DNA from: Flavobacteriales bacterium
GTDB taxonomy: Bacteria > Bacteroidota > Bacteroidia > Flavobacteriales_F > PHOS-HE28
Length of the DNA: 64,000 nucleotides
Direction of reading: 5' to 3'
Assembly: GCA_023382455.1 (NCBI GenBank)
Contig: JAHDVX010000019.1
Location: 1 to 64,000 of the forward strand
The notes beneath the pieces are model-generated. The model saw nothing but the letters and a program-made list of their open reading frames with translations, made no database searches and had not been told where the DNA came from. The position numbers and the translations under genes are program-made. Shown here one piece after another: positions 5,143 through 19,688 of the stretch; position 1 is the first letter of the stretch; each line of letters starts with the position of its first letter.

Positions 5143-6780
5143 TCAGTGCATGACGAGCAGGCGGATGCTTTCAGGAGCCGGTAGGTCGCTTTCCAGGCGA
5201 ACCAAGTAGGCCCCGTTGGGCAGTCCGGCCACATCAATGGTCGGTCGCTTATCGGATATGCGGCCCGTAAGGACGGCATGCCCGGTGGCATTGAAAACAG
5301 TGAAACGGGCATCGGCCCCAACCACCTGACCAATGGTCACCAGGCCGGACGCCGGATTGGGGTAGGCCGAAAGCTGCCCTTGCCGGAGCTGTTCCGCTGT
5401 ACCGGCCGGGGAGGAGCACGGCGAATCGCTGCCGCCGAGCACCGTCGTTCCCGTATTGTCAGGGTCAAGCCAGGCCTTGAGCTTCAGGTTGGCTGTATTC
5501 GGGTTGTTGGTCCAGTGGTAGCTCATCTTGCCGAAATAGGCCCACCCCGAGTGGTTGGAGCAGGTCATCCCGGAGGAGTTGCCGGTGCAGGTGCCGATAA
5601 GCACAGGCCCTGTTCCGTCCATGTGCTTGAAAAGGCCTGAACCGCTTGAACCCACTTCGGTGATGCCCCAACCATGCTCGGTGGCGGCCCAGATCAACTT
5701 GTAATGGCTCATCAGGCCTGAGGAGGCCATGGGATGCCCGGTGGTGAGCGTTTGGGTATAGGAGGAGATGCGCTTGGGAGCGCCGGTAGGGTGATGTATG
5801 CACACGCCATCGGCGGTCACCGTGGACAAGTTCGTGGCATCCCAACCGGCCCAGTAAGGCTCGAAGGAGCCCGGGATCCCCGCGTTGGTGTGCAGGAGCA
5901 TGAAGTCGGAACCGCCAAGCCCTTGGTACTGTGGATTGTAGTCGTTGCTGTAGGCTTTCAGCTGGGCGCCGGTCATGAACTGTGCTGTGCTGTAGGAGCC
6001 TCCGGAGCAGCCGGCGTATTGGAAGTTGAAATAGAACTTGTACTGATTGAAGTTGGCCGTGGTGGATTCGCGGCCGCAATGGAAGGCGGAGAGGATGTAG
6101 GGCGCACAATCCTGGCGCACATTGTTCACCAAGGTGCCGGTGCACCAGCCCGTGCCTTGGGGGACCACCACACTGATCCGCACCGTGGCCTTGATCGGTC
6201 CTTCCCAGCCATCCCTTTCCGGCGAGCAGGCCACGTTCACATGGCAATTGCCTTCGCGGTCCGTGAAGGCTTCCACGTCCCGGTAGGCGTGGCTCAGCCA
6301 GGGCAAGGAGAACCGGCCGGGCTGCAGGGCGTCCACAGGTTCGCGGTATTCCAGTACCCAGCTGTCCCCGCTCACCAACGGCGTCGCATATTCATGCACG
6401 TCTTGGGGCAGGTCCATTCCCACGTAGGGGTGAAGTTCCTGGCCGTCCAAGGTGGTGATCCGCATGCGCGCTCCGGCAGGCACGGATACATCCTCCAGGA
6501 AAAGTTCCATGGCTAAGGCGCCCGGGGAAGAAACAGCCAACCTGCACACGCGTTCGGAGCCATCCACGGACCAAGTGCCGTCCGCGCTGGATACGGCAAG
6601 GGCGAGCTTTCGTCCATAAAGCGGAAGCTCGCCGGCCTGTTCGCGCCGCTCATCGTCCTGCTGCACGGCGGCGGCATCAAAGGCCACGGCCCGAAGAATG
6701 GGCAAGGGCATGCCAGCCGGTTGGCCAAGAGCCACCATTGGCGACCACGCCAATGCGAACCACGCCGACATCACCTTCAT
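5143..6780 (-). CDS. Trypsin-like (lysyl endopeptidase-type) serine protease, T9SS type A
   Basis: 545 aa. A signal peptide (about 1-20) is followed by a pro-region of about 150 residues and a chymotrypsin-fold domain. The candidate catalytic triad is His234 in ILSAFHCG, Asp292 in GGSDFMLLH and Ser379 in GSSGSG. The CTGTLVNN strand before the His and the GSSGSG serine loop resemble Lys-C-type lysyl endopeptidases more than digestive trypsins. The C-terminal 80 residues (AYPNPASG..., GLPNGAYLVRL) are a type A T9SS sorting domain, so this should be an exported or surface-bound protease. Its ATG overlaps the stop of the preceding gene (ATGA at 6777-6780), implying translational coupling to the choice-of-anchor-L protein. 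Substrate specificity cannot be read from the sequence alone. Confidence 0.92.
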   Translation of the reverse strand: MKVMSAWFALAWSPMVALGQPAGMPLPILRAVAFDAAAVQQDDERREQAGELPLYGRKLALAVSSADGTWSVDGSERVCRLAVSSPGALAMELFLEDVSVPAGARMRITTLDGQELHPYVGMDLPQDVHEYATPLVSGDSWVLEYREPVDALQPGRFSLPWLSHAYRDVEAFTDREGNCHVNVACSPERDGWEGPIKATVRISVVVPQGTGWCTGTLVNNVRQDCAPYILSAFHCGRESTTANFNQYKFYFNFQYAGCSGGSYSTAQFMTGAQLKAYSNDYNPQYQGLGGSDFMLLHTNAGIPGSFEPYWAGWDATNLSTVTADGVCIHHPTGAPKRISSYTQTLTTGHPMASSGLMSHYKLIWAATEHGWGITEVGSSGSGLFKHMDGTGPVLIGTCTGNSSGMTCSNHSGWAYFGKMSYHWTNNPNTANLKLKAWLDPDNTGTTVLGGSDSPCSSPAGTAEQLRQGQLSAYPNPASGLVTIGQVVGADARFTVFNATGHAVLTGRISDKRPTIDVAGLPNGAYLVRLESDLPAPESIRLLVMH

Positions 6781-9700
6781 CGCAGCAAGGTGATATGGCC
6801 GAAGCCGGTTCTGGGCGGCAAGGAGAGACCTTCGACGCGGTACTTATACTGGTAGATCCCTTGCGGAACCTCCTCGCCGTCGGGGGTATGGCCACTCCAT
6901 CGGTCGGCCATGTCATGGCTTTCGAAAACGATCTGGCCCCAGCGGTTGAATACCAGCAATTCGTAACTGGTGATCAGGATCCCTTCACCTCCGAAGGTGT
7001 CGTTGAACCCGTCCTCATCGGGAGTGAACGTGTTGGGGAAGTAGATGGTGGCTTGTGGCGGTCGTGTACGCACGCTGTCGGTGAGCACGCAGCCGTCCGG
7101 AGTGGTTACGGTGAGCAGTACCCAGAATGCATCGGGCTGATCGTAGGTGTGGTTCACCGTGGGGGTGGTGGCGGTGGTGCCATCGCCGAGGTCCCAGGCC
7201 AGGGTGCTTCCCGGCGGTTCATAGTGTGCCGCGAAGTTCCACGTGTACTCACCCATCTGGGTCGCGGAAATGGAAGCACTTCCAGCGAAGACATCCACTT
7301 GGACATTGGCCGTGGCCGTAGTCCCGCACAGGTCGGTCACCTGGACCATGGCGTTCAGGCCACCGGGTGTTGCATGCCATGCCACGGTGTTGCCCGAGCC
7401 CAGCCCGGGCCAGGTAACGGTATAGCCTCCCGCCCCACCTTGCGGCAATACCCATAGCGGCACTTGCTCACCAGGGCACACGATGGTGTCGTTGGAAGTG
7501 GCCAGGAGCAACGGCGGATGGTCCATGACGATGGCGGCCAGCGTGGTATCGGTGCTGTTGCCACAATCGTCGGTCACGGTCAGCGTGTACCACGTATCTG
7601 AATCCACGGCAGTGGAGAGCGTCGGGCTGTTGTTGATGCCGGTACCCAGGCCCCAGTCGTATCGGTAGGTGCCACCGCCTCCGGAAACGTTGACGGCTTG
7701 AAGCACGGCGGTCATGCCCGCGCATTCCACCGTATCCCCGTAGGCCTCGATGCTGATCGGCGGCGTGGGCCCGGTGGTCACCACCACTTGGCCGCTGATG
7801 GATTGACCGCATTGGTCGCTGACCACCATGGTGTACACATCATTGGCCGCAGCGGGAACGTTGAGGATGGAATCACTTCCCATCACTTGTCCGCCCAAGG
7901 TCCAGGTGTACGAGATGGATCCACCTCCTCCGGTTACGGTTGCGACCAGGTCAGCGTGGCCCAGGCACGGTATGGCCGTGTCCGGTGTCAGGGTAAGCAC
8001 CAAGGGAACGGGTGGCGCTTGTGAAACGAGCACGGAATCGGAGGTTTGCACCCCGCAGAGGTCGGTGACCGTGACCACGTAGTACACCGGGGGAATGGCG
8101 GGAGGCACATCCGGAAGGATGGAGTCGTTGCCCAGCACCTGTCCGGCCAACGTCCATTGGTAGGTGTATCCGCCGGCCCCGTTCTGGGCCTGCACCATCA
8201 GGTCGGCGGTGTGGAGGCACGGGATGGCCGTATCCGGTGTGGTCAGCAGCGCCATGGGCAAGTACAATGGCAACGTCACCCACGCACTGTCCGCGGCGGG
8301 CAGGCTCCAGCAATCCTTCACCTGCACCCAGAATTGGGTGGTCTGGTCCACGAAGTGGGTGATGCTTGGCGTGGTCTCGCCGGTGTTCCATAGATACTCG
8401 TAGGAGCCGGGATCGCCGCCGCCGCCGGTCACCACGGGTGTGAGGGTGATGGTTTCGGGGCAATCCAGGTCGATGTCGTCGAGGGTTACTTGCAACGGCG
8501 GTTTCTGGTCGATCAGGAAGTGGTAGGTTTTGATCTTGGCGCCGTTGCAGGTGATGAGCTTGATGATCAGGTCCTCGGGCCCGTCAACATCCACGGGCAC
8601 CGCGATGGGGACGATGGCGAAGGAATCAAGCTGGTTGAAGTGGACGCTGTCGATAAGTGCAGGCAGGACGTCCACGCCGTTTGTAGCCGTACCCTCCACC
8701 TGGATCTGGAGCCACTCATCGAGGTAGAACCCTCCCCAGCGGTGGAAGCGCAGGTACACGCTGTCGCAGTCGTTCTCGTAGAAGATGGTGTCCGTTGCCG
8801 TGTACTCCACGGTCGGCCCGGGGTCTGCGGTGAGGGAGAAACGGTCGCTGCTGGTGAAGGAGCCGTTTTCCAGCCACACGGCGGAGGGGAACCAATTGTC
8901 GCCCGTGTTGCCCACGCCCATTTTGATGTGGTACAGTTCGCCGCACTGCACTGCGGCGCTGGCGGTGAGCACCACGGTCATGCCATTGTGCTGGATGTAG
9001 TAGGGGTCGTTGTTATAGGGGGATTCCAGTTGGGGCTGTCCGCCAGGGGGCATGGCGAATGGCCACTGCCCGCCATTGTACCGGTAGTACTGCACATTGT
9101 TCAGCCAGCTGGGGTAGTTGTCGCGGCAATTCTCCCAGGGATCCATGCTGTTCCATGGGCCGTTGGCGTTGGCCAGCACCTGTCCGCTGTTCACGGAGTT
9201 CACGCAAACAGGGTCCATGGAACCCGGCACGTAGGCGATGTTGATCGCATTGTTGGTGTAAGGCCCATTGATGCCCGGCCCACTGAGGAAGAAGCCGAAG
9301 ACGTCGTTGTACTCGCTGCACGCCCAGCGCTCATATTCCTCCGAGGAGAAGACATAGCGCACGCTCACCATGTCGCTTGTGGGGACGAAGTCAAACTCCA
9401 GCACCGATTTGTTGCCGATGTTGTTGCCGCCGCTGACCTGCCACATCGGCCATGCGGTCAGTTGGCTCAGGTCCAGGTCGGGGCTGGTCCAGAAACCTCC
9501 GCCTCCCATGCCGCCGCCGTGCTGCATCAGCAGGTCGTTCGGCCCGGGCAGGGAGTAGTCCGCGTCATTGGTGCAGAGGAAGGTGCCGCTGTTGATGCCG
9601 ATCACGGTATTGGTGCCATTGAAGCGGCCGATCTGCCCAAGTGTGGTGAACAGTGACGGCACCAAATTCCCTGGGCTGCCGTTGTACGTGACGTTGTTGG

Positions 9701-9848
9701 CGAACACGCCCGACCCCATTAGGTAGTTCTGCACCAAGGTGGTGGGGGGCTGCGTCTGGTTGATGATCAGCTGGGCCTGTGCCGGGGTCACCGCCAGCAG
9801 GAAACCGGCCAACGCGATCAAAGGAAGTGTTCGCTGCTTGGCGCTCAT
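6777..9848 (-). CDS. Choice-of-anchor L protein with PKD/Ig-like repeats and type B T9SS tail
   Basis: 1023 aa from the ATG at 9848. The frame stays open further upstream, but that part is a shadow of the preceding gene; the signal peptide MSAKQRTLPLIALAGFLLAVTPAQAQ fixes the start, which also makes an ATGA overlap with the upstream stop (9845-9848). After the signal comes a choice-of-anchor-L-type N-terminal domain (LIINQTQPPTTLVQNYL..., YVFSSEEYERWACSEYNDVFGFF). A middle region follows with about five Ig/PKD-like repeats that each carry a DTAIPC-like strand and a D-x-CG turn, then a PKD module (LAWDLGDGT). The last 85 residues (FPNTFTPDEDGFNDTF, LLVFNRWGQIVFES) are the gliding-motility-type C-terminal domain, i.e. 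a type B sorting signal. It is probably an adhesin or surface filament protein. Confidence 0.92.
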   Translation of the reverse strand: MSAKQRTLPLIALAGFLLAVTPAQAQLIINQTQPPTTLVQNYLMGSGVFANNVTYNGSPGNLVPSLFTTLGQIGRFNGTNTVIGINSGTFLCTNDADYSLPGPNDLLMQHGGGMGGGGFWTSPDLDLSQLTAWPMWQVSGGNNIGNKSVLEFDFVPTSDMVSVRYVFSSEEYERWACSEYNDVFGFFLSGPGINGPYTNNAINIAYVPGSMDPVCVNSVNSGQVLANANGPWNSMDPWENCRDNYPSWLNNVQYYRYNGGQWPFAMPPGGQPQLESPYNNDPYYIQHNGMTVVLTASAAVQCGELYHIKMGVGNTGDNWFPSAVWLENGSFTSSDRFSLTADPGPTVEYTATDTIFYENDCDSVYLRFHRWGGFYLDEWLQIQVEGTATNGVDVLPALIDSVHFNQLDSFAIVPIAVPVDVDGPEDLIIKLITCNGAKIKTYHFLIDQKPPLQVTLDDIDLDCPETITLTPVVTGGGGDPGSYEYLWNTGETTPSITHFVDQTTQFWVQVKDCWSLPAADSAWVTLPLYLPMALLTTPDTAIPCLHTADLMVQAQNGAGGYTYQWTLAGQVLGNDSILPDVPPAIPPVYYVVTVTDLCGVQTSDSVLVSQAPPVPLVLTLTPDTAIPCLGHADLVATVTGGGGSISYTWTLGGQVMGSDSILNVPAAANDVYTMVVSDQCGQSISGQVVVTTGPTPPISIEAYGDTVECAGMTAVLQAVNVSGGGGTYRYDWGLGTGINNSPTLSTAVDSDTWYTLTVTDDCGNSTDTTLAAIVMDHPPLLLATSNDTIVCPGEQVPLWVLPQGGAGGYTVTWPGLGSGNTVAWHATPGGLNAMVQVTDLCGTTATANVQVDVFAGSASISATQMGEYTWNFAAHYEPPGSTLAWDLGDGTTATTPTVNHTYDQPDAFWVLLTVTTPDGCVLTDSVRTRPPQATIYFPNTFTPDEDGFNDTFGGEGILITSYELLVFNRWGQIVFESHDMADRWSGHTPDGEEVPQGIYQYKYRVEGLSLPPRTGFGHITLLR

Positions 9849-11710
9849 CGCACGAGTGTTACGTGTCCCGTCAGGGCATCGGCTCCCGGCATATCCGGGG
9901 TCACGATGAAGAAGTAGGTGCCGTCCGGGAAGCCGGAACCGTTCCAACCCTGGACCAGGTTGCGGGTGCTGAATACCACCTGCCCCCAGCGGTTGTAGAT
10001 CTCCATCAAACCGGGTGCGCCCTTGTAGCCGATGGGGATGAACCGGTCGTTCCGCCCGTCGCCGTTGGGGCTGAACACATTGGGCATCTCGATCACCCCG
10101 GGATCGATCACCGTTACCATGGAGAGCACGGTATCCACACATCCGTTCGTGGTGGAGACCACCAGCATCACCGGGTAATCGCCGGGTACGGCCGGGAAGT
10201 CGGCTTCCACGTCCTGGTCCGTGGAGGTGGACGGGTTGGCGGCGCCAAGGTCCCACCACCAGGAAATGATGTCCGCGGAACCGGATCCGCTGAGTTGCAC
10301 CGTGGGGTCTTCGGCATCCACGGGGTTCGGGTTGGCGTTGATCTGGCCATTGGCCCCGGGGAACACGGTGATGGCATCGGGTATCGTCAACTCACCCTCA
10401 CATCCGGCCGCATCGCGCACCCGGAGGGTCACATCAAAGGAGCCCGGGGCCGTGTAGACGTGGGTGAATGCACTGTCCGCCGTGGTGTTGCCGTCGCCCA
10501 GGTCCCAGTGGATGGTCTGGGTGCCGCCCCCGGTGGTATCGGCGAAGGCCACGGTGAGCGGTGCACATCCGGATACGGGGGAGAGCGCGGGGAACGGAGT
10601 GGGTGCCGCAGCCGGAGCCACGAAGGCCGACCCCATCAGGCATTCGCCGCTGAACGTGCTGGCCATGGTGTACAATCCCGGGCCGAGATTGCCTGCCGAA
10701 ACGTCCAAGGTCGCGCTGTTCTGGCCGGGCAAGGCCACACCATCCAGGTACCATTGGAAGTTCGTGGCACCGGCTGGTGGTTGGGCCATGGCCAATACAT
10801 CACCGGCACAGAGGTTGCCCGTGGTGGCCGTGGGGCTGAGCACCTGGTCACCGGCCTCGGAGAGCATCAGGTCATCCACGATGAAGTAAGGCATCAATCC
10901 AACAGGTTCACCCTGGTCATCCAGGATGGTGCGTGTATCGAAGGAGGGCGGCAGGTCACAGGCACTGCCGATCATGATGGAGTGGATGTCCTGCGTGGGC
11001 GTGAACGTGATGGAGACACGCACCCAGTCCCACGAAGGCTGTACCATCACACTGCCCAGTTCATTCCATCCCGGTTCGTCACCGATGCAATCCCTGTTGG
11101 AGTTCATGACGGGAACTGGGAAGGGCACGCAGGCGTTGGCGTAGCCGAAGATGGCCAAGGGCAATTGGTCCGGGAAGAGCGAGCCGATCATTTGCCCTTG
11201 GGCCGCGGGTTGGCCATGAACGTCATCCACCGAGGCGCCCGCAATCCAAAGGGATAAGGTATAAGTGGTACCGGCGATCAACGGATTCGAGGGCAGGGGC
11301 CAGGTCAGGCAAGTGCCGACATACTCCTTGTAGGTGGTCATTGCGAAGAATCCCACGGCGCCTTCACCGTCCGGTGGTGGCAGGGGCATGCCGGCTGGGG
11401 AGTAGCCGCATTCGTGGAAGTAGTCGGATGTGGAGGAGGTGGCCTGGTGCCAGCCGGTGGCGCAATCCAGCCAAGGTGGTCCGAGTGGCGATACAAACCC
11501 TAGTGGACAGCAGCTCCTCTGCTCGAAGGAATGGTTGCGGATGTAGCTCGGCAAGCTGTCCGTCATCAGCAAGGTGGAGCAGGGGCAGTCCGGGTCGTTC
11601 AGGTCGATCAGCCCGTCGGTGTCATCATCGATACCGTTGTTGCAGATCTCCTGGGCGGAGAGTGCGGCCGGAAGTACAAGGGCCAGGAGGATGGCCGATA
11701 GGGCTTTCAT
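9845..11710 (-). CDS. PKD-domain secreted protein, type B T9SS tail (paralogue 1)
   Basis: 621 aa from the ATG at 11710. The frame is open for another 57 codons upstream, but only the internal ATG gives a signal peptide (MKALSAILLALVLPAALSAQ). Residues 23-44 hold an Asp-rich NNGIDDDTDGLIDLNDPDC motif, a likely calcium-binding loop also seen in other surface proteins. It is followed by a carbohydrate-binding-like beta domain, an Ig-like segment, two PKD-type modules (DLGDGNTTADSAFTHVY; WWWDLGAANPS) and a gliding-motility-type sorting domain (MPNVFSPNGDGRNDRF, IYNRWGQVVF). The 3' third is nearly identical in DNA to the gene at 12109-13992. It is the first gene of the presumed secreted-protein operon and has a promoter-like box and a palindrome upstream. 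Confidence 0.9.
   Translation of the reverse strand: MKALSAILLALVLPAALSAQEICNNGIDDDTDGLIDLNDPDCPCSTLLMTDSLPSYIRNHSFEQRSCCPLGFVSPLGPPWLDCATGWHQATSSTSDYFHECGYSPAGMPLPPPDGEGAVGFFAMTTYKEYVGTCLTWPLPSNPLIAGTTYTLSLWIAGASVDDVHGQPAAQGQMIGSLFPDQLPLAIFGYANACVPFPVPVMNSNRDCIGDEPGWNELGSVMVQPSWDWVRVSITFTPTQDIHSIMIGSACDLPPSFDTRTILDDQGEPVGLMPYFIVDDLMLSEAGDQVLSPTATTGNLCAGDVLAMAQPPAGATNFQWYLDGVALPGQNSATLDVSAGNLGPGLYTMASTFSGECLMGSAFVAPAAAPTPFPALSPVSGCAPLTVAFADTTGGGTQTIHWDLGDGNTTADSAFTHVYTAPGSFDVTLRVRDAAGCEGELTIPDAITVFPGANGQINANPNPVDAEDPTVQLSGSGSADIISWWWDLGAANPSTSTDQDVEADFPAVPGDYPVMLVVSTTNGCVDTVLSMVTVIDPGVIEMPNVFSPNGDGRNDRFIPIGYKGAPGLMEIYNRWGQVVFSTRNLVQGWNGSGFPDGTYFFIVTPDMPGADALTGHVTLVR
9885..10570 (-). repeat. 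Direct repeat copy A (PKD plus sorting-domain coding DNA)
   Basis: Bases 9885-10399 are identical, base for base, to 12149-12663 (515 bp, offset 2264). A further 170 bp match with scattered, partly silent differences. The copy encodes the second PKD-like module and the type B sorting domain of the protein at 9845-11710. The sharp change from perfect identity to the clearly diverged 5' halves of the genes indicates recent gene conversion or segmental duplication. Confidence 0.95.
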
Positions 11711-11867
11711 GCACGGTATGCGACGCTTGGAGAGTGTGTTGGGCAACGATCGGGCCCGGTTAAAGGGAGATTTGGAGAGTGGGGCGGGCCGTTCCTGGCC
11801 CAAAGGAGAGTTGATGGAGAATGGGGCTTTCGCTACCTTCGGTTCCTTGTTTGGGGTTGCTCGGGGG

Positions 11868-11875
11868 CCAATATA
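11868..11875 (-). promoter_or_regulatory. Putative -7 promoter element (TATATTGG)
   Basis: Minus-strand TATATTGG is close to the Bacteroidota -7 consensus TAnnTTTG. It lies about 155 bp upstream of the start codon at 11710, so the leader would be about 150 nt. The rest of the 398-bp gap 11711-12108 shows no convincing gene. Confidence 0.45.
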
Positions 11876-11903
11876 GTTCACCTCAAGGGATTTTTGATTT
11901 GTT

Positions 11904-11923
11904 GTGTAGAATTATTGCTACAC
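11904..11923. promoter_or_regulatory. Palindromic operator candidate 1 (GTGTAG-N8-CTACAC)
   Basis: A perfect 6-bp inverted repeat with an AT-rich 8-bp spacer. Read on the minus strand the core is GTAGCAATAATTCTAC. The core starts 30 bp upstream of the putative -7 box of the 9845-11710 gene. It matches palindromes at 14042-14057 and 17850-17865. Confidence 0.5.
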
Positions 11924-12108
11924 GGTAGGATAGACGTTACAGGGTCTCCCCACGTTGCCCGAAGAGGTGAAGGACCAGGGATCGGAAGGATCCATCCGGC
12001 CAACGGTCCACAGTACCGGTGAACGGTACCCCCCCCCCAATGAAGGCAGACCGCGAAAGTCCCCGGCGCCTGGCCGGGTGGTGGAAGTGCCCAGAATCCG
12101 GGGTCGGC

Positions 12109-13992
12109 CTACCTGACGAGCGTGATGTGGCCAGTGAGGGCCCCCGTACCCGGCATATCCGGGGTCACGATGAAGAAGTAGGTGCCGTCCGGGAAGCCGG
12201 AACCGTTCCAACCCTGGACCAGGTTGCGGGTGCTGAATACCACCTGCCCCCAGCGGTTGTAGATCTCCATCAAACCGGGTGCGCCCTTGTAGCCGATGGG
12301 GATGAACCGGTCGTTCCGCCCGTCGCCGTTGGGGCTGAACACATTGGGCATCTCGATCACCCCGGGATCGATCACCGTTACCATGGAGAGCACGGTATCC
12401 ACACATCCGTTCGTGGTGGAGACCACCAGCATCACCGGGTAATCGCCGGGTACGGCCGGGAAGTCGGCTTCCACGTCCTGGTCCGTGGAGGTGGACGGGT
12501 TGGCGGCGCCAAGGTCCCACCACCAGGAAATGATGTCCGCGGAACCGGATCCGCTGAGTTGCACCGTGGGGTCTTCGGCATCCACGGGGTTCGGGTTGGC
12601 GTTGATCTGGCCATTGGCCCCGGGGAACACGGTGATGGCATCGGGTATCGTCAACTCACCCTCGCAACCGGCCGCATCGCGCACCCGGAGGGTTACATCA
12701 AAGGAGCCCGGGGCCGTGTAGGTATGGGTGAATGCGCTGTCCGCCGTGGTGTTGCCGTCGCCCAGGTCCCAGTGGATGGTCTGTGTGCCGCCCCCGGTGG
12801 TATCGGCGAAGGCCACGGTGAGCGGTGCGCATCCCGAATCCGGGGCCATGGAGATCTGCGGGACCGGGGCGGAAGCCGGGGGCAGGAAAGAGTTGCCCAT
12901 CAGGCATTGGCCATTGAACGTGCTGGTCATGGTGTAGGTGCCCGGCCCCAGCCCCATGCCGGAGATGTCCAGGTCGGCGGTGGTCTGCCCCGGGATCGCT
13001 ACACCGTCAAGGTACCATTGGAAGCCGCTGGCACCTGAGGGCGGAATGGCCAGTGCCCCGGCATCCTCTGCACACAGGTTGCCGGTCACGGCCACCGGCT
13101 GCAGCACCTGGTCCTGTGCTTCGGTGAGCAACAGGTCATCCACCAGGAAGTAGGGTGTGCCGTAGTAGCCCTCGCCTTCGGCATTGACGATCCATTTTCC
13201 GCTGAAGGAGGCCGGGACGTCACAACCGCCGCCGATAAGGATGGAGTGGATGTCCTGCGTCGGCGTGAAGGTGATGGACACACGGGTCCACTCCCAGGCC
13301 GGTTGCACCATCACGCGGCCCAGTTCGCTCCAGCCCGGCATCAAGCCGATGCAGTCAAGGGTTGGAATGGGGAATTCCACACATTCATCGGCATGGCCGA
13401 AAATGGCCAGGGGCAACTGCTCGGACCAGTACGACGGGTCGGCCTGGGCGAGGGTCTGGGAATGATAGCTGTTCACTGCGGCGGCGGAGATCCAGAGGGA
13501 AAGCGTATAGGTGACGCCCGCCAGCAAGGGGTTGGAGGGCAAGGGCCAAGTAAGGCAAGTGCCGACGTACTCGAAATAGCCGGGCTGGGCGAAAAAGCCA
13601 ACTGCGCCGTCCCCATCGGCCGGCGGCAGGTTGAAACCGACCGGGGAATAGCCGCATTCGTGGAAATAATCGGACGTGGCGATCGTGGCCTGGTGCCAGC
13701 CGTTGGCACAATCCAGCCAAGGTGGCGAGACCACGGAGACGAAGGATAGTGGACAGCACAGCCGGTCCTCGAAGGAGTGGTTCCGGATATAGCTCGGCAG
13801 GTCGTCTGCGGCCACCAGTGTGGAGCAGGGGCAATCCGGGTCGTTCAGGTCGATAAGTCCGTCGTTGTCATCATCGAGGCCGTTGTTGCACACCTCCTGG
13901 GCGCAGAGCAGTGTGGGGAAGGCCAAGGCGAGCAGCAGGGTGGAGCAGGTCTTCAGCACGGGAGTGGATGTTGAGGTTGATGCGGGAGGCAT
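12109..13992 (-). CDS. PKD-domain secreted protein, type B T9SS tail (paralogue 2)
   Basis: 627 aa from the ATG at 13992; the frame also allows a TTG two codons upstream, which I reject because a promoter-like box ends at 14006. The signal peptide is longer than usual (MPPASTSTSTPVLKT, then LLLALAFPTLLCAQ). Domain order matches paralogue 1: an Asp-rich NNGLDDDNDGLIDLNDPDC loop, a beta-rich domain, an Ig-like segment, two PKD modules and a type B sorting domain. The last 228 or so residues are nearly identical to paralogue 1 while the N-terminal two thirds have diverged, so the two probably present different binding heads on the same stalk and anchor. The gene has its own promoter-like box and palindrome and appears to be a separate transcription unit. 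Confidence 0.9.
   Translation of the reverse strand: MPPASTSTSTPVLKTCSTLLLALAFPTLLCAQEVCNNGLDDDNDGLIDLNDPDCPCSTLVAADDLPSYIRNHSFEDRLCCPLSFVSVVSPPWLDCANGWHQATIATSDYFHECGYSPVGFNLPPADGDGAVGFFAQPGYFEYVGTCLTWPLPSNPLLAGVTYTLSLWISAAAVNSYHSQTLAQADPSYWSEQLPLAIFGHADECVEFPIPTLDCIGLMPGWSELGRVMVQPAWEWTRVSITFTPTQDIHSILIGGGCDVPASFSGKWIVNAEGEGYYGTPYFLVDDLLLTEAQDQVLQPVAVTGNLCAEDAGALAIPPSGASGFQWYLDGVAIPGQTTADLDISGMGLGPGTYTMTSTFNGQCLMGNSFLPPASAPVPQISMAPDSGCAPLTVAFADTTGGGTQTIHWDLGDGNTTADSAFTHTYTAPGSFDVTLRVRDAAGCEGELTIPDAITVFPGANGQINANPNPVDAEDPTVQLSGSGSADIISWWWDLGAANPSTSTDQDVEADFPAVPGDYPVMLVVSTTNGCVDTVLSMVTVIDPGVIEMPNVFSPNGDGRNDRFIPIGYKGAPGLMEIYNRWGQVVFSTRNLVQGWNGSGFPDGTYFFIVTPDMPGTGALTGHITLVR
12149..12834 (-). 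repeat. Direct repeat copy B (PKD plus sorting-domain coding DNA)
   Basis: Partner of the copy at 9885-10570: 515 bp of exact identity (12149-12663), then about 170 bp of near identity up to the Ig-like segment. It lies inside the coding region of the 627-aa paralogue. Confidence 0.95.
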
Positions 13993-14005
13993 GCGCAAGG
14001 GCGCG

Positions 14006-14013
14006 CCAAGATA
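14006..14013 (-). promoter_or_regulatory. Putative -7 promoter element (TATCTTGG)
   Basis: Minus-strand TATCTTGG, one base off TAnnTTTG, ends 14 bp before the ATG at 13992. Transcription would start only a few bases upstream of the start codon. Confidence 0.5.
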
Positions 14014-14041
14014 GCCTTGGTGAATATCAGTGGAATAAAAT

Positions 14042-14057
14042 GTAGAATATTTACTAC
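14042..14057. promoter_or_regulatory. Palindromic operator candidate 2 (GTAG-N8-CTAC)
   Basis: GTAGAATATTTACTAC on the plus strand. It lies 28 bp upstream of the -7 box at 14006-14013 and overlaps the stop codon of the sensor kinase gene. Sequence and spacing match the palindrome upstream of paralogue 1. Confidence 0.5.
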
Positions 14058-17000
14058 TTGGCGGCCTCGCTACTCAAGCCGTAAGTGGCCGGTCCGTTCC
14101 GGGTCTCCTTCGTGAGGCATGGCAGGATCACGGTTATCGCGGTGCCCAGGCCCTTGGTGCTGTCCACCACGAAGCTGCCGCCCAAGAGCTGCAGCAAGTC
14201 GGCCACGATCAGCAGCCCGAGGCCTTGGACATCGCGCTCGCCTTCCTCGTTCATGGCGCCAAGGGCTCCGCGGCCCTGTATCCGCAGGGCATGGCGCAGG
14301 GCGGCGTCCGGCATGCCGTTTCCGGTATCGGCCACGGTAATGTGGTAGGCCGAGGCGTGCATGGCAGCGCTCACGCGCACATGGCCTTTCGCCGTGTGGT
14401 TCACACCATTGGCCACCAGATTGTGCAGGATGATGGAAAGCACGTTCCGGTCCGTTTGCAACACATCGTCGTCCGGGACAGCATTCTCCAGGCGGATGCC
14501 CTTGTCGAGCGCCCGCTCCTGCTCCATGGCCAATACCTCATCCACCAGGGGCTTGGCTGCCACGTGGCGTATCCTCAGGTCGATCCTTCCGTCCTGCCGT
14601 TTGATCCACTGGAGCAGGCCTTGGGCATTGGCGTGCAGCTTGTCCGAGGAGCGTGCGATGTCATGCAGGGTGTCCTCCAAGCGCTTGGGGTCCTGCTCCT
14701 GCAAGCCTTTGGTGGCACCATTGGAAACACGGGCGATGAAGCGCAGCGGGGTAACGATGTCGTGGGAGATGATGGAGACCAGCATTTCCTTCATCTCCAG
14801 GGATTTCCTCAGCTCCGTATTGGAGTTCATCAACTCGCTGGTCCTGGCCCTGACCATTTTCTCCAGGTGCAGGTTCCGGCGGCGCAGGCGTGCGGCATTC
14901 AGGCGCAGGATGGCGGCGAAGATCAGGGCGGCGGCCAGGATGCACAGGATGATGAACCAGGAGGACCGGTAGAAGGGCACGGGTACGATGAACAGCAATT
15001 CAATGGGGCGTGCCCCATCGCGGAATGCGGAGCCCACCTTGCGGATGCGGAGCAAGGTCTTTCCGGATGGCAGCGCGGAAAGCCTCAGTTCCCGCTGGCC
15101 CGGGATCATGGGGATCCATCGTCCGGGCCCATCACTCTCCAAGGTGTATTCCAGCCTCGCGTTCTCCTTCACCCCCCAATAGGCCAGCGAAAAGGTGATC
15201 GAGACATCACGGTGGTCCCAGCTAAGCTTGTACTCCGGTGCCGTGCCCAAGGTCTTGCCGTCCACGGTGGTTCCCTCCAGCAGGATCGGTTCCTTGGGAT
15301 AGGCATCCTGTACATCCTCCGGCCTGAACCACACCAATCCGTCCATGGTGGGGAAGGACGCCCAGCCATTGCCTGTGCGGGTGAATGCGGGGCTGCACCC
15401 TCCGTTGAATTCCGAGTTGCGAATGCCGGAGCGCTTGCCGTAGTAGGCGATGTAGATGCTTTGTGTGGTGTCCCGCGTCCAAGCGGAGAGATCCTGGCGG
15501 CGCAAGCGGAAGAGACCTTGGTTGGTGCTCATCCACAGGAAGCCGGCGGAATCGGGCAGGAAGGCATGCACATGGCTCAGGAAACCCTCATCGTCCCTGG
15601 GCAGGTGCCAAAGGCGGCTGCCTTTGGCCAGGAAAGCGCCGCTCCCATAGGTGCCCACCAAGACCCCCTCATCCACAGGGGCCAACGCCCTGGCGCAAAC
15701 ACCGCCAAGACCTTCAACAGGTTGCCAGCCTCCATTGCCTCGGGCCCGGTACACGCCGGAGCAGGTGGCCACCCACAGTTCGCCATCCGGGGTGATGCAC
15801 AGCGCCGCCGGGCGAAAGGCCAGGTCATGCTCATCGAGGGGATTGGTGAGTTGGAGCTTTCCCTCGGAATACCGGAAGATGCCCTTGCCTGTGCCGATAT
15901 GGATGGCCCCTTCATGTTCAAGGAAGCACAGCGGGCGTACCCCGGCTTGCACTATGTGTTCTTCCCGGGTGGCCATATCGAAGGTGTACAGGGTGTCCTG
16001 CCGGCCGTACCAATAACGCTGGTCCTGGTCGAGCAGGATGGCGGACTCCTCGAAGCCGGGTATCGGGGCGGCACCAGGCCCGCATCCCGCCGCTGTGAAC
16101 AGGCGGGCCGAACCGCGCGTGCTGGATATTACCCCGTCCTGGCCGAAGGGGGCTTGGGCGAAGTATACATTGTTGGTGCCATCACCTCCGATATCACAGA
16201 GTAAGGTACGCATGGTATTCCTGCGGTAGAGGAAAAGTCCTTTCGTATCCGTGCCAATGGCAAGTACATCGCCACTGGGCAACCAGGTCAGGCTGCCTAC
16301 CCGGCAGTCCGACGGCAATTCCACCGGGACCTTCACGGCCTCAAGCCCATTCCCGTTCCGGGTGGACTGCACCAGGAAAACACCTTCCGCAGCGACGATG
16401 CTCACCTTTCCGGTACTGGCCTCGCAGTACATGCGCCAAGTGAGCTGCCCGTCCTTCTTTTCCACCTTGGGGAATCCATGGACCGGCACAGGTACCGGGG
16501 TCTGGTGTTCCAGGTCCATCCGGAAGGCATGTCCCTCGGTATTCAGCACATAGGCATGGCCGTCCAAGGTGAAAAGGTGGGACCATTTTCCCTGGGGTAT
16601 CCCGAAGCGTTCAGCCAGTGCGGTGTCGTTGTACACCAGCAGTTCATGGTCCGTGCGCATGCACCAAGTGCCACTTCCCAAGGGTATCATGCGTACGCTG
16701 TACGGCCAATCCCGCTTTCCGGGCAGCATGGAATCCGGGTCCATGGCACTTACGACCAGCTGCACTGAAGACCCCACGCCGGCGAAGCGGGACAAGGGTT
16801 TGCGTGCCGGTGCATCGCTCGTGATGGACGAGATCTGGTTGTCCTTGTACAAGTACTGCCTGCTGCCGGCATCGCGCACCACATAACCCTTGCCGGGAAC
16901 GGGTATGATGTCCAGGACCCGGCTGGGCCGCAGGCCTTCGGGCGCGGGCATGCCGATCTGCCGGAAGTTCTCACCATCGAAGCGCACCAGGCCGCCTTCC

Positions 17001-17194
17001 GTACCGATCAGCAACCCGCCCCAAGGGTCGAGTTCCATGGCGTGCACGCGGTTCTGCAGCAACCCGTTCTCGGAAGTGTACTGCTCACGCGTCCACGCTT
17101 CCTGGGCGGTTGCCGGTACCACGGTCAGGAGCCATGCTGCCGCGACGGCGGCGAATATTCCGGGCATCGCCCGGCCCGCCGATCGGTCCATCAT
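14054..17194 (-). CDS. Two-component sensor histidine kinase with beta-propeller sensor domain
   Basis: 1046 aa. A signal-anchor or signal peptide (about 10-31) is followed by a large periplasmic sensor of two-component-regulator propeller repeats (for example LWMSTNQGLFRLRR, GGLLIGTEGGLVRF). A Y_Y_Y-like beta-sandwich lies at about 640-720, one transmembrane helix at about 744-764 and a coiled coil after it. The kinase core has the H-box SIISHDIVTPLRF with phospho-acceptor His811, the N-box LHNLVANGVNHT, the G1 box DTGNGM and the G2 box GLGLLI. There is no receiver or DNA-binding domain, so it should signal through the response regulator whose stop codon overlaps its start (17191-17194, ATGA). 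Similar sensors often detect glycans or surface cues; the ligand here is unknown. Confidence 0.92.
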   Translation of the reverse strand: MMDRSAGRAMPGIFAAVAAAWLLTVVPATAQEAWTREQYTSENGLLQNRVHAMELDPWGGLLIGTEGGLVRFDGENFRQIGMPAPEGLRPSRVLDIIPVPGKGYVVRDAGSRQYLYKDNQISSITSDAPARKPLSRFAGVGSSVQLVVSAMDPDSMLPGKRDWPYSVRMIPLGSGTWCMRTDHELLVYNDTALAERFGIPQGKWSHLFTLDGHAYVLNTEGHAFRMDLEHQTPVPVPVHGFPKVEKKDGQLTWRMYCEASTGKVSIVAAEGVFLVQSTRNGNGLEAVKVPVELPSDCRVGSLTWLPSGDVLAIGTDTKGLFLYRRNTMRTLLCDIGGDGTNNVYFAQAPFGQDGVISSTRGSARLFTAAGCGPGAAPIPGFEESAILLDQDQRYWYGRQDTLYTFDMATREEHIVQAGVRPLCFLEHEGAIHIGTGKGIFRYSEGKLQLTNPLDEHDLAFRPAALCITPDGELWVATCSGVYRARGNGGWQPVEGLGGVCARALAPVDEGVLVGTYGSGAFLAKGSRLWHLPRDDEGFLSHVHAFLPDSAGFLWMSTNQGLFRLRRQDLSAWTRDTTQSIYIAYYGKRSGIRNSEFNGGCSPAFTRTGNGWASFPTMDGLVWFRPEDVQDAYPKEPILLEGTTVDGKTLGTAPEYKLSWDHRDVSITFSLAYWGVKENARLEYTLESDGPGRWIPMIPGQRELRLSALPSGKTLLRIRKVGSAFRDGARPIELLFIVPVPFYRSSWFIILCILAAALIFAAILRLNAARLRRRNLHLEKMVRARTSELMNSNTELRKSLEMKEMLVSIISHDIVTPLRFIARVSNGATKGLQEQDPKRLEDTLHDIARSSDKLHANAQGLLQWIKRQDGRIDLRIRHVAAKPLVDEVLAMEQERALDKGIRLENAVPDDDVLQTDRNVLSIILHNLVANGVNHTAKGHVRVSAAMHASAYHITVADTGNGMPDAALRHALRIQGRGALGAMNEEGERDVQGLGLLIVADLLQLLGGSFVVDSTKGLGTAITVILPCLTKETRNGPATYGLSSEAAK

Positions 17195-17832
17195 CCAACG
17201 TGGTGGCGGTGTGCTTTGGCCATGCGCTGGAGGTCGAGCAGGTTCGATACCCCGAGTTTCTCGAACAGCCTGGCCTTGTAGGTGGCCACGGTGGAGGGCT
17301 GGAGCCCCATGCGAAGGGCGATGGCCTTCACGCCCAACCCGGCCAAGAGGTCATCCATCACACCGATCTCGCGGTCGGACAGCAAGGAAAAAGGGTTGGC
17401 CAATGATTCCTCGTCCTTCACTTTCTCCTGCAGGTGGTCCTCGATCTGGTTGCTGATGTACGGTTTGCCTTGCAGCACGTGGCGTATGGCGCGCACCACT
17501 TCGTCCTCACTGCTTTCCTTGCTCAGGAACCCGGCCGCACCCAAGGCAAGCACCCGTTGTGCGTATACGTTTTCGGACCTCATGGTGTAGACCAGTACGC
17601 GCATGCCCGCGTGGTCCTTGCAGATACGCTCCAAATGGTCCAGCGTGCTGCCGTCGGTCAACTGCAGGTCCAGCAGCAGCATGGAAGGTTCCTTCTTTTC
17701 CAGGGAGCCAAGCAATTCCTGGCACGTGGCCACTTCCTCCACGTCGGAGGTATGGAACTGGTCGTGCAGCAGGTTGCGGAGGCCGCGTCGAACGATCACG
17801 TGGTCATCGGCGATCAGGAAACTGGCGTTCAT
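17191..17832 (-). CDS. LuxR/NarL-family response regulator
   Basis: 213 aa. The receiver domain spans about residues 1-125, with acidic residues DD at 9-10, phospho-acceptor Asp55 in MLLLDLQL and the conserved Lys in GFLSKES. A LuxR-type helix-turn-helix occupies about 148-210 (LSDREIGVMDDLLAGLGVKAIALRMGLQPSTVATYKARLFEKLGV). It is the cognate partner of the propeller kinase encoded immediately downstream with a 4-bp overlap. A palindrome of the same type as those before the flanking T9SS type-B genes sits at -18 to -33 relative to this start codon, suggesting that the regulator may control those genes and itself. Confidence 0.93.
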   Translation of the reverse strand: MNASFLIADDHVIVRRGLRNLLHDQFHTSDVEEVATCQELLGSLEKKEPSMLLLDLQLTDGSTLDHLERICKDHAGMRVLVYTMRSENVYAQRVLALGAAGFLSKESSEDEVVRAIRHVLQGKPYISNQIEDHLQEKVKDEESLANPFSLLSDREIGVMDDLLAGLGVKAIALRMGLQPSTVATYKARLFEKLGVSNLLDLQRMAKAHRHHVG

Positions 17833-17849
17833 GGCGCGAAAGGGCGGAT

Positions 17850-17865
17850 GTGGTCAAAATTCTAC
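17850..17865. promoter_or_regulatory. Palindromic operator candidate 3 (GTGG-N8-CTAC)
   Basis: GTGGTCAAAATTCTAC on the plus strand, sharing AATTCTAC with the other two sites. It lies 18 bp upstream of the response regulator start, over a presumed promoter (CCCTTTCG at 17837-17844 on the minus strand). This position would suit autorepression. Confidence 0.35.
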
Positions 17866-18076
17866 ATGCACAGCCTGGCTCCCCAAGTAAGTTGCACCCG
17901 ATTTCAACCGAAATCCTGTCGTCTGAGTAGGAAGGGGAGCAACGGATGTCCGCGTGGTCTTGAGAGTGACCCGTTGGACATGGAGAGCCGGGGTTCCCAG
18001 GTCGAAAAGGCGGGAGTTGCTGGTACGGGCCGACATGGTGGACGCGATGCACACTTGGAGAGTGGGGCTGATGTGA

Positions 18077-18175
18077 CTACTTCAAAAGCTCGGGAAATCC
18101 AGCGGGAAACCCATAGGGCATTCTTCCAAAGAGATTTGGAAGGATGCCCTTGGTCGTTTCCCGGGTTGGCTTCAT
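18077..18175 (-). CDS. Possible 32-aa small ORF or small RNA
   Basis: In the 564-bp gap between the response regulator and folA, a minus-strand TATCTTTCG box (18079-18187 region, box at 18179-18187) lies three bases before an ATG at 18175 that opens a 32-codon frame ending in TAG at 18077. The peptide (MKPTRETTKGILPNLFG, then a Pro/Gly/Phe-rich tail) matches nothing I recognise. A strong 16-bp hairpin lies inside it. The same transcript could instead be a small regulatory RNA. Nothing else gene-like is visible in 17833-18396. Confidence 0.25.
   Translation of the reverse strand: MKPTRETTKGILPNLFGRMPYGFPAGFPELLK
18115..18150. repeat. Long inverted repeat (16-bp stem, GAGA loop)
   Basis: Arms 18115-18130 and 18135-18150 are complementary over 16 bp with one G-U-type mismatch and a 4-base loop. 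No T tract follows on either strand, so a simple Rho-independent terminator is not clear. Confidence 0.7.
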
Positions 18176-18396
18176 AGGCGAAAGATAGGTGATCGGCACG
18201 ACCTGGGGTGGTTTCTTTCCCTCGGATGTGATCCGCGGCCTTTTGTTGGATCGCTACCGGGCATGCCAATGACGAGCCTGGAATGCGGCCTGCCACATGC
18301 GTTCCTCAGGTCCGGACTGGGCCCGGACCACCCCTGCCGGAATGTGGGAGGGAGCGGCGAGGAATTTCGCCAGTCGGTTGGATGCTTCGGCTGGCG

Positions 18397-18897
18397 CTAC
18401 CGCTGCAGCACGCGCAGGGTGAAGGAGTGCTTGTGGCGGTCGTCCGCCTTGTGCTTCTCGCTCCACACTTCCTTCCATTCCTTGCCGATGGTGGGGAAGA
18501 AGGCATCTCCTTCGGGCTTGGCATGCACCGTGGTGATGTAGAGCCTATTGACGATGCCGGCCTCGATGGCCTCGGTGTAAAGCTGGGCACCGCCAATGAT
18601 GAAGATCTCCTTGGTCTCTTCGGCCTTGGCCTTTTCCAATGCATCGGCCAGGGAGTGGCAGACCACGGCCCCGGGGGCCACGTAGTTCTTGTCGCGGGTC
18701 ACCACGATATTGAGGCGGTCCCGCAAGGGGCGGAATTGCGGAGGGATGCTTTCGTAGCTCTTCCGGCCACTGATCACCGGGTGGTTCAGCGTGGTGCGCT
18801 GGAAGAACTTCATGTCGTCCGGCAGGCTCCATGGGAGTCCGCCCTCCTTGCCGATGACGCCGTTCTCGGCCACGGCTGCGATGGCACTGATGATCAT
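18397..18897 (-). CDS. folA: Dihydrofolate reductase
   Basis: 166 aa, normal length. It reduces dihydrofolate to tetrahydrofolate with NADPH. Visible hallmarks are the N-terminal [23 protein letters not shown] strand and Met20-type loop, the active-site acidic residue Asp28 in LPDDMKFF, the NADPH-binding GRKSYESIP segment and the IIGGAQLY glycine motif. The start codon overlaps the thyA stop by 4 bp (18894-18897), so the enzyme that regenerates tetrahydrofolate is translationally coupled to the one that oxidises it, a common pairing. Confidence 0.97.
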
Positions 18898-19688
18898 ACC
18901 GATACGGAGGCTTTGATGTGCGGGTGCGGATCGTAGTTCAGCAGTTCGAAGTCTTCGAACTGGAAGGCAAAGATGTCCTTCACCGCAGGATTGATCTTCA
19001 ACGTGGGCAGGGCGCGTGTTTCGCGGGTAAGCTGCAGCTCAGCCTGCTCGATGTGGTTCAGGTAGAGGTGCACATCGCCGAAGGTGTGGACGAACTCGCC
19101 CGGCTGCAGGCCGCAGACCTGTGCCACCATCAGGGTGAGCAGCGCATAGCTGGCGATGTTGAATGGCACGCCGAGGAACGTGTCCGCACTGCGCTGGTAC
19201 AGCTGGCACGAAAGCTTGCCGTCCACCACGTAGAACTGGAACAGGCAATGGCAAGGGGGCAGCGCCATGCGGTCCACATCGGCGGGGTTCCAAGCGGTGA
19301 CGATCAGGCGGCGGCTGTCCGGCTTGGTGCGGATCATGTTCACCAGGTTGGCGATCTGGTCGATGTGCCCGCCGCTGGGGGTAGGCCAGTTCCGCCATTG
19401 GTAGCCGTACACGGGGCCCAGGTCGCCGTTGGCATCGGCCCATTCGTCCCAGATGCGCACGCCGTTTTCCTTCAGGTACTTGATGTTGGTGTCGCCTTGC
19501 AGGAACCACAGCAGCTCATGCGCGATGCTCTTGAAATGCAGCTTCTTGGTGGTGAGCAGCGGGAAGCCGTCGGCCAGGTTGAAGCGCATCTGGTAGCCGA
19601 AGCAGCTCAAGGTTCCCGTTCCTGTACGGTCCTCCTTGCGGGTGCCGTTCTTCAGGATGTGGCGGAGCAGGTCGTGGTACTGTTGCAT
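18894..19688 (-). CDS. thyA: Thymidylate synthase
   Basis: 264 aa, the same length as the E. coli enzyme. It methylates dUMP to dTMP using methylene-tetrahydrofolate. The catalytic Cys146 is in [11 protein letters not shown], the folate/dUMP-binding [10 protein letters not shown] and [20 protein letters not shown] motifs are intact, and the C-terminus ends in the usual hydrophobic Val. It precedes folA with a 4-bp overlap and follows the ClC gene at 65 bp. A TAACTTCG box lies about 10 bp upstream of the ATG, so it may also have its own promoter with a very short leader. Confidence 0.98.

Follow-up and report, generated by a model that had tools for sequence, protein, structure and literature searches.

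The locus analysed here raises the question of what links a two-component system to the T9SS type-B surface protein genes encoded beside it. To our knowledge, the on/off switching of T9SS surface proteins in Bacteroidota is poorly known, and few sRNAs of these bacteria have a known regulator and known targets. The window, i.e., the whole stretch of 64,000 nucleotides that was analysed, is part of contig JAHDVX010000019.1 of a Flavobacteriales bacterium. An earlier note on this DNA had described a small surface-display circuit held together by a palindrome. The palindrome is indeed common to both T9SS genes and the response regulator (RR) region, but the circuit appears to be larger than was claimed: it includes a predicted sRNA complementary to surface-gene leaders, and its apparent targets include at least one surface gene that is unlinked. 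We consider it probable that RR and sensor kinase activate the T9SS genes together with an antisense sRNA that has several loops and acts on the leaders of these genes, which would constitute an incoherent feed-forward loop.

The regulator, the surface genes and their shared palindrome

The RR gene (17191..17832, minus strand) encodes 213 aa with a receiver and a GerE/LuxR helix-turn-helix domain of the NarL type (Pfam Response_reg, 2e-20; GerE, 1.8e-13). Its stop is overlapped by the sensor kinase gene (14054..17194, minus strand; 1046 aa), the product of which combines a Reg_prop propeller with HATPase_c (Pfam). On the same strand lie T9SS type-B gene B (12109..13959; PKD_4 and CHU_C), with an uncertain start codon and a very short leader, T9SS type-B gene A (9845..11710; PKD_4 and CHU_C), with its start near 11711, and a third CHU_C surface protein gene (6777..9848), which overlaps the stop of gene A and probably forms one operon with it; in relatives its orthologue likewise lies after the T9SS gene. 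The C-terminal sorting domain CHU_C (PF13585), which marks type-B proteins, was found in all three (E 6e-15 to 1e-15). Genes A and B are nearly identical over their PKD/CHU_C C-terminal halves (window positions 9845-10800 and 12109-13060), which suggests recent gene conversion, and their N-terminal halves diverge.

The palindrome GTAG-N8-CTAC is present exactly where it had been reported, at 11906..11921 in the gene A promoter and at 14042..14057 in the gene B promoter (both minus strand), the latter overlapping the kinase stop codon. The distances to the -7 boxes were also correctly given, namely 30 nt to TATATTGG of gene A (11868..11875, minus strand) and 28 nt to TATCTTGG of gene B (14006..14013, minus strand). 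In the relatives, too, the predicted site and a downstream TANNTTG[CG] box are separated by 27-30 nt (30 nt in G003, G019, G049 and twice in G020; 29 nt in G002, G005 and G017; 28 nt in G001, G041, G044 and G051; 27 nt in G022). In a study of Flavobacterium psychrophilum, the motif TAnnTTTG and its variant TAnnTTGY are placed at -12 to -5 (PMC9723704), and on this placement the T9SS sites would be centred near -48, which is the geometry expected of an activator. The activator-like spacing that had been proposed for the two promoters is thus supported.

A motif of this kind could be mere background, and a high frequency in this genome had been named as the result that would speak against it. 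The strict palindrome occurs twice in the window against 0.11 expected, a number reached in 0 of 100 shuffles, and three times in the whole genome (3.43 Mb, 51 contigs); besides the two in the window there is one at C17:3000, which lacks a suitably spaced -7 box. When no more than one mismatch was allowed, the refined motif GTAGAATWWTNNCYAC matched exactly three times in 3.43 Mb, at the three reported sites, and so is not background of this genome. Matches to the strict motif in more distant relatives were dropped as evidence, being too common in AT-rich genomes.

RR relatives at E<=1e-40 are found in 24 of the 45 genomes of the genus, and the order RR, kinase, site, type-B gene, third CHU_C gene is kept in same-genus relatives. 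Every RR orthologue of at least about 60% identity has TGTAG-N8-CNAC just upstream, which bears out the link between palindrome and adjacent two-component system, and in the RR-carrying relatives the palindrome recurs upstream of type-B T9SS genes. Genomes with close type-B homologues (E<1e-65) all carry the RR; five RR-less genomes have relatives at 38-45% only. On these sequence comparisons, the shared palindrome is real, rare and conserved across relatives.

The divergent promoter and its predicted structured RNA

The third palindrome, also present as reported (17850..17865, plus strand), reads GTGGTCAAAATTCTAC and had been taken as a site of RR autoregulation. Its position 17-57 nt upstream of the RR start in orthologues would fit a purely local circuit, without any RNA, in which the RR switches on its own gene along with the T9SS genes. 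However, a -7 box that the earlier note had missed, TAAGTTGC (17888..17895, plus strand), lies 22 nt from the site on the strand opposite the RR gene. The gap from the site to this divergent TANNTTGC box is exactly 22 nt in nine of nine close orthologues and 22-24 nt in the remaining loci, with 22-23 nt in the second clade; in 16 orthologous loci the site lies 22-23 nt from a -7 box that faces away from the RR. A conserved GCAACCTA-like element upstream of the third site reads TAGGTTGC, TAAGTTGC, TACGTTGC, TACGTTTG or TAGTTTTG on the opposite strand. These boxes match the -7 consensus, with TA and TTG kept and variation mainly in the two free positions and in the alternative TTTG/TTGC; the second-clade loci of G044 and G041 have TACCTTAG in place of the usual box. 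No conserved -7 box facing the RR gene was found in the orthologous loci, and on this account an autoregulatory role of the third site is not supported. The local circuit without RNA is quite unlikely for this reason, and also because a conserved structured RNA with a terminator lies downstream of the divergent box. The third site would be centred near -41.5 relative to the divergent start. The gap of 22-23 nt at the sRNA promoters differs from that of 27-30 nt at the T9SS promoters, a difference that we count against the feed-forward reading.

The predicted RNA is about 260 nt long (17896..18159, plus strand; its true 5' end is probably a few nt inside 17896). A consensus fold of the six-species alignment comprises 84 pairs, 27 of which are changed on both sides (shuffled mean 11.8; reached in 0 of 500 shuffles), with 91.8% of the cells paired. 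The covariation value is 0.333 against 0.210 in shuffled alignments (again reached in 0 of 500) and 0.05-0.13 when the structure is slid (maximum 0.127), from six sequences and a structure predicted from the same alignment. The molecule ends in an intrinsic-terminator-like hairpin, GGGCATTCTTCCAAA-GAGA-TTTGGAAGGATGCCC with a T-rich tail (18116..18159, plus strand), the helix of which (helix 13) has five pairs with compensatory change and 97.4% of the cells paired. The fold exposes loop 1, UUGAGAGU (17960..17967), as an apical loop, loop 2, GGAGAG (17982..17987), as a bulge, and UGGAG, in the loop 3 region UUGGAGAGUGGGGC (18055..18068), as a further apical loop (all plus strand); loops 1 and 2 are unpaired and invariant in the six species. 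Three GAGAG motifs lie in sRNA loops. In predicted folds every loop region is partly paired, which again counts against the preferred reading.

A small protein was rejected as the product of the divergent transcript, in which no conserved ORF was found. A known RNA family was likewise rejected: Rfam gave no match up to E=1 in the window region 9500-19500 and, for ten related loci, nothing that reached the gathering score. The RNA model R1, built from one arm, recovers no loci beyond the six, each from a different genome, on which it was trained; this limit arises because the arm diverges, and it says nothing about wider copies. The conserved RNA could instead be a leader or cis-element of an upstream gene rather than a trans-acting sRNA, since in G005 and G022 the divergent direction runs toward the yceD-rpmF-plsX region. 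This is most improbable: the neighbour in the genome studied here and in G019 is folA, which lies on the opposite strand and is convergent to the RNA, and the RNA ends in the conserved terminator hairpin. The flanking genes vary from genome to genome.

RR paralogues of 53-57% identity (G006, G014, contig C117 of G020, and G048) keep GTAG-N8-CTAC with a changed centre. Their loci (L073, L074, L076 and L106, respectively) have no adjacent type-B genes. In G006, G014 and G020 they also show a divergent -7 box and a predicted terminator-ended transcript with the motif GGAGAGCC. A conserved segment, GGTCGGGAGAGACC...GGCGGAAA, lies upstream of rimO and divergent from RR paralogues in L077, L107 and L078, with no Rfam match at gathering score.

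Complementarity between sRNA loops and surface-gene leaders

The leader of gene A contains GCCCCACTCTCCAA (11772..11785, minus strand), which is complementary to the sRNA loop 3 region over 14 of 14 nt, and sequence search found further ACTCTCC boxes near 11804-11811 and 11728-11735 on the same strand. Gene B has the palindrome and no CTCTC box, which counts against the feed-forward reading; being almost without a leader, gene B should escape the sRNA. Complementarity extends over 14 nt in G051 and G017 as well, 13 nt in G003 and G005, 12 nt in G022 and, with a different seed, 11 nt in G002. Pairing is weak (7-10 nt) in G020, G044, G041, G019 and G049, a further point against. Shuffling gave p values of 0.003-0.01 in the strong cases and no significance for gene B, G020, G044 and G041; the combined p is about 5e-10 if shared ancestry is ignored. 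Whole-molecule duplex energies ignore accessibility and were left out of the evidence.

Loops and leaders have changed together. In G051, ACACCACTCTCCAA pairs with UUGGAGAGUGGUGU, with flanks changed on both sides, and in G005 the leader elements GCCACTCTCCAAT and ACCACTCTCCAA match its two loops GGAGAGUGGC and GGAGAGUGGU. In the second clade GGUGAGAGGAG stands against CTCCTCTCACC. When all leaders were compared with all sRNAs, most first-clade leaders paired over 10-14 nt with first-clade sRNAs and mostly over 6-10 nt with second-clade sRNAs, and the G002 leader over 10-11 nt with second-clade and 6-8 nt with first-clade sRNAs. As far as sequences tell, the seeds co-vary between the clades, and the best pairing of a leader is mostly with an sRNA from the clade to which it belongs. 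With more than a dozen species compared, this natural co-variation is already an indication of pairing.

Candidate targets in trans show the same boxes. The sequence CCACTCTCCAA occurs four times in the genome, i.e., in the sRNA, the gene A leader, the leader of an unlinked secreted-protein gene and the 5' part of the coding sequence for a lipoprotein. Within the genome studied here, two leaders alone have the double box ACTCTCC-N1-30-ACTCTCC, that of gene A and that of a gene for a large secreted protein, on contig C28 (L119; 42738-44270, minus strand; open frame of 2176 aa), which has four CTCTCC leader boxes and no palindrome. Orthologues of the latter gene (70-82% identity) with the leader double box occur in G003, G017, G019, G022 and G051. 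The gene is present in 8 of the 45 genomes, all of which carry the RR and the sRNA. In G020 the sRNA loop is AGAGAG rather than GGAGAG, and the boxes of the orthologous leader are CTCTCA rather than CTCTCC. G049 and G050 have a double box behind a similar TTAACATTGGC promoter, and no orthologue of the C28 gene was detected at these two loci. In sRNA-less genomes double-box matches are few and scattered over unrelated places. The search for CTCTCAC pairs in the second clade, less clean than that for the first-clade box, gave plausible secreted-protein leaders in G002, G001 and G041 and low-complexity repeats elsewhere. A gamma-glutamyltransferase-like lipoprotein gene with CTCTC boxes at its 5' end (L116, near 158687 of contig C1 in the genome studied here; L156 in G002; L178 in G001) is a possible further target.

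The boxes might also be generic pyrimidine-rich elements of translation or DNA, and their match to the sRNA loops a low-complexity coincidence. They are short and of low complexity, pairing is weak in several species, CTCTCAC repeats also stand at unrelated places, and the second-clade tandem box CTCTCAC occurs in clade-1 genomes too, which tells against the preferred reading. However, the perfect 14-nt pairing includes non-repetitive flanks that change together (GGGGC with GCCCC; GGTGT with ACACC), the trans target is kept in sRNA-carrying species, and CTCTC boxes are present in 11 of the 12 T9SS leaders that bear the palindrome, against 3 of 17 homologues that lack it (p=1e-4), so that 14 of these 17 have none. 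We regard such a coincidence as unlikely.

The proposed circuit and known systems

The proposed feed-forward circuit builds on the conservation of the sites, their fixed spacing, the covariation of the RNA, the complementarity of loops and leaders with its co-variation between clades, and the conserved boxes in the leader of a trans target, all of which are present in the sequences. The propeller kinase and the NarL/LuxR-type RR would control a small surface-protein regulon by binding of the RR to the site TGTAG-N8-CTACA. Once phosphorylated, the RR would activate two kinds of promoter, those of the neighbouring type-B T9SS genes (site centre about -48) and that of the divergent sRNA of about 260 nt (site centre about -41.5). 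Through its three GAGAG loop motifs the sRNA would then form duplexes in the cell with the CTCTC boxes of the T9SS mRNA leaders and with those in the leader of at least one surface-protein mRNA from an unlinked gene. Several boxes are located at the start codon or a short way before it (they touch it in G022, G002 and G044), and the sRNA would therefore most likely block translation, so that surface-protein synthesis would be limited to a pulse or held below a ceiling. The specific site, the specific RNA and the named targets make the circuit directly testable.

In enterobacteria, the RR of the two-component system EnvZ/OmpR activates the antisense sRNAs OmrA and OmrB, which act via a 5' seed on several mRNAs of outer-surface proteins. 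The layout here appears similar in that a two-component RR, by its site at the sRNA promoter, is combined with an antisense sRNA that has conserved complementarity to several surface-protein mRNAs. Unlike OmrA/B, the sRNA here has several structured loops, and the RR also appears to activate the same targets.

Within the same order as the host here, the sRNA Rfp18 of Flavobacterium is described in the available text of PMC9723704 as structured and trans-acting; it is predicted to pair with the mRNAs of several secreted proteins, an adhesin among them, and its deletion lowers a metalloprotease mRNA. The likeness is one of description, and that text reports no regulator link, unlike the predicted RR site here. 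It also describes SM5 (TAnnTTGY) promoters of F. psychrophilum that serve gliding/T9SS adhesin genes (PMC9723704). Most T9SS and sRNA promoters here have a TAnnTTGC box too; unlike SM5 as described there, some have TAnnTTGG or TAnnTTTG.

Also close in wiring is GacS/GacA-RsmX/Y/Z of Pseudomonas (PMC2375449), which likewise has an RR with a LuxR helix-turn-helix, a palindromic upstream site, sRNAs with several GGA-containing loops, and control of exported functions. The RR here carries Response_reg and GerE, and the sRNA under its palindrome (22-nt gap) has multiple unpaired GGA motifs, with GGAGAG and UGGAG in loops 2 and 3. These likenesses (PMC2375449), together with the unpaired state of the loops in the predicted fold, would also suit a Csr/Rsm-like titration, in which the GAGAG loops sequester an RNA-binding protein that otherwise controls the surface genes. 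However, CsrA/RsmA (PF02599) is absent from the 99.95% complete genome, the control being positive in E. coli, B. subtilis and T. maritima, and titration of CsrA itself was rejected on this account. Moreover, the targets carry the complement CTCTCC and not GGA motifs, and this complement co-varies with the sRNA, which leaves titration of this kind very unlikely. Membership in Gac/Rsm fails for want of CsrA, and the analogy alone stands: in contrast to Gac/Rsm, complementarity exists here between the loops and the target leaders, the sRNA and RR genes are divergent, and the RR site is found at the targets as well. The proposed circuit would thereby exemplify a Gac/Rsm-like wiring that does without CsrA. 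There is perhaps an even chance that a family of paired modules is at hand in one Flavobacteriales genus, each consisting of a NarL-type RR and its own divergent multi-loop antisense sRNA, Gac/Rsm-like, CsrA-less and governing T9SS surface display by an incoherent feed-forward loop, in which loops and leaders co-evolve and paralogous modules within the same cell address different targets.
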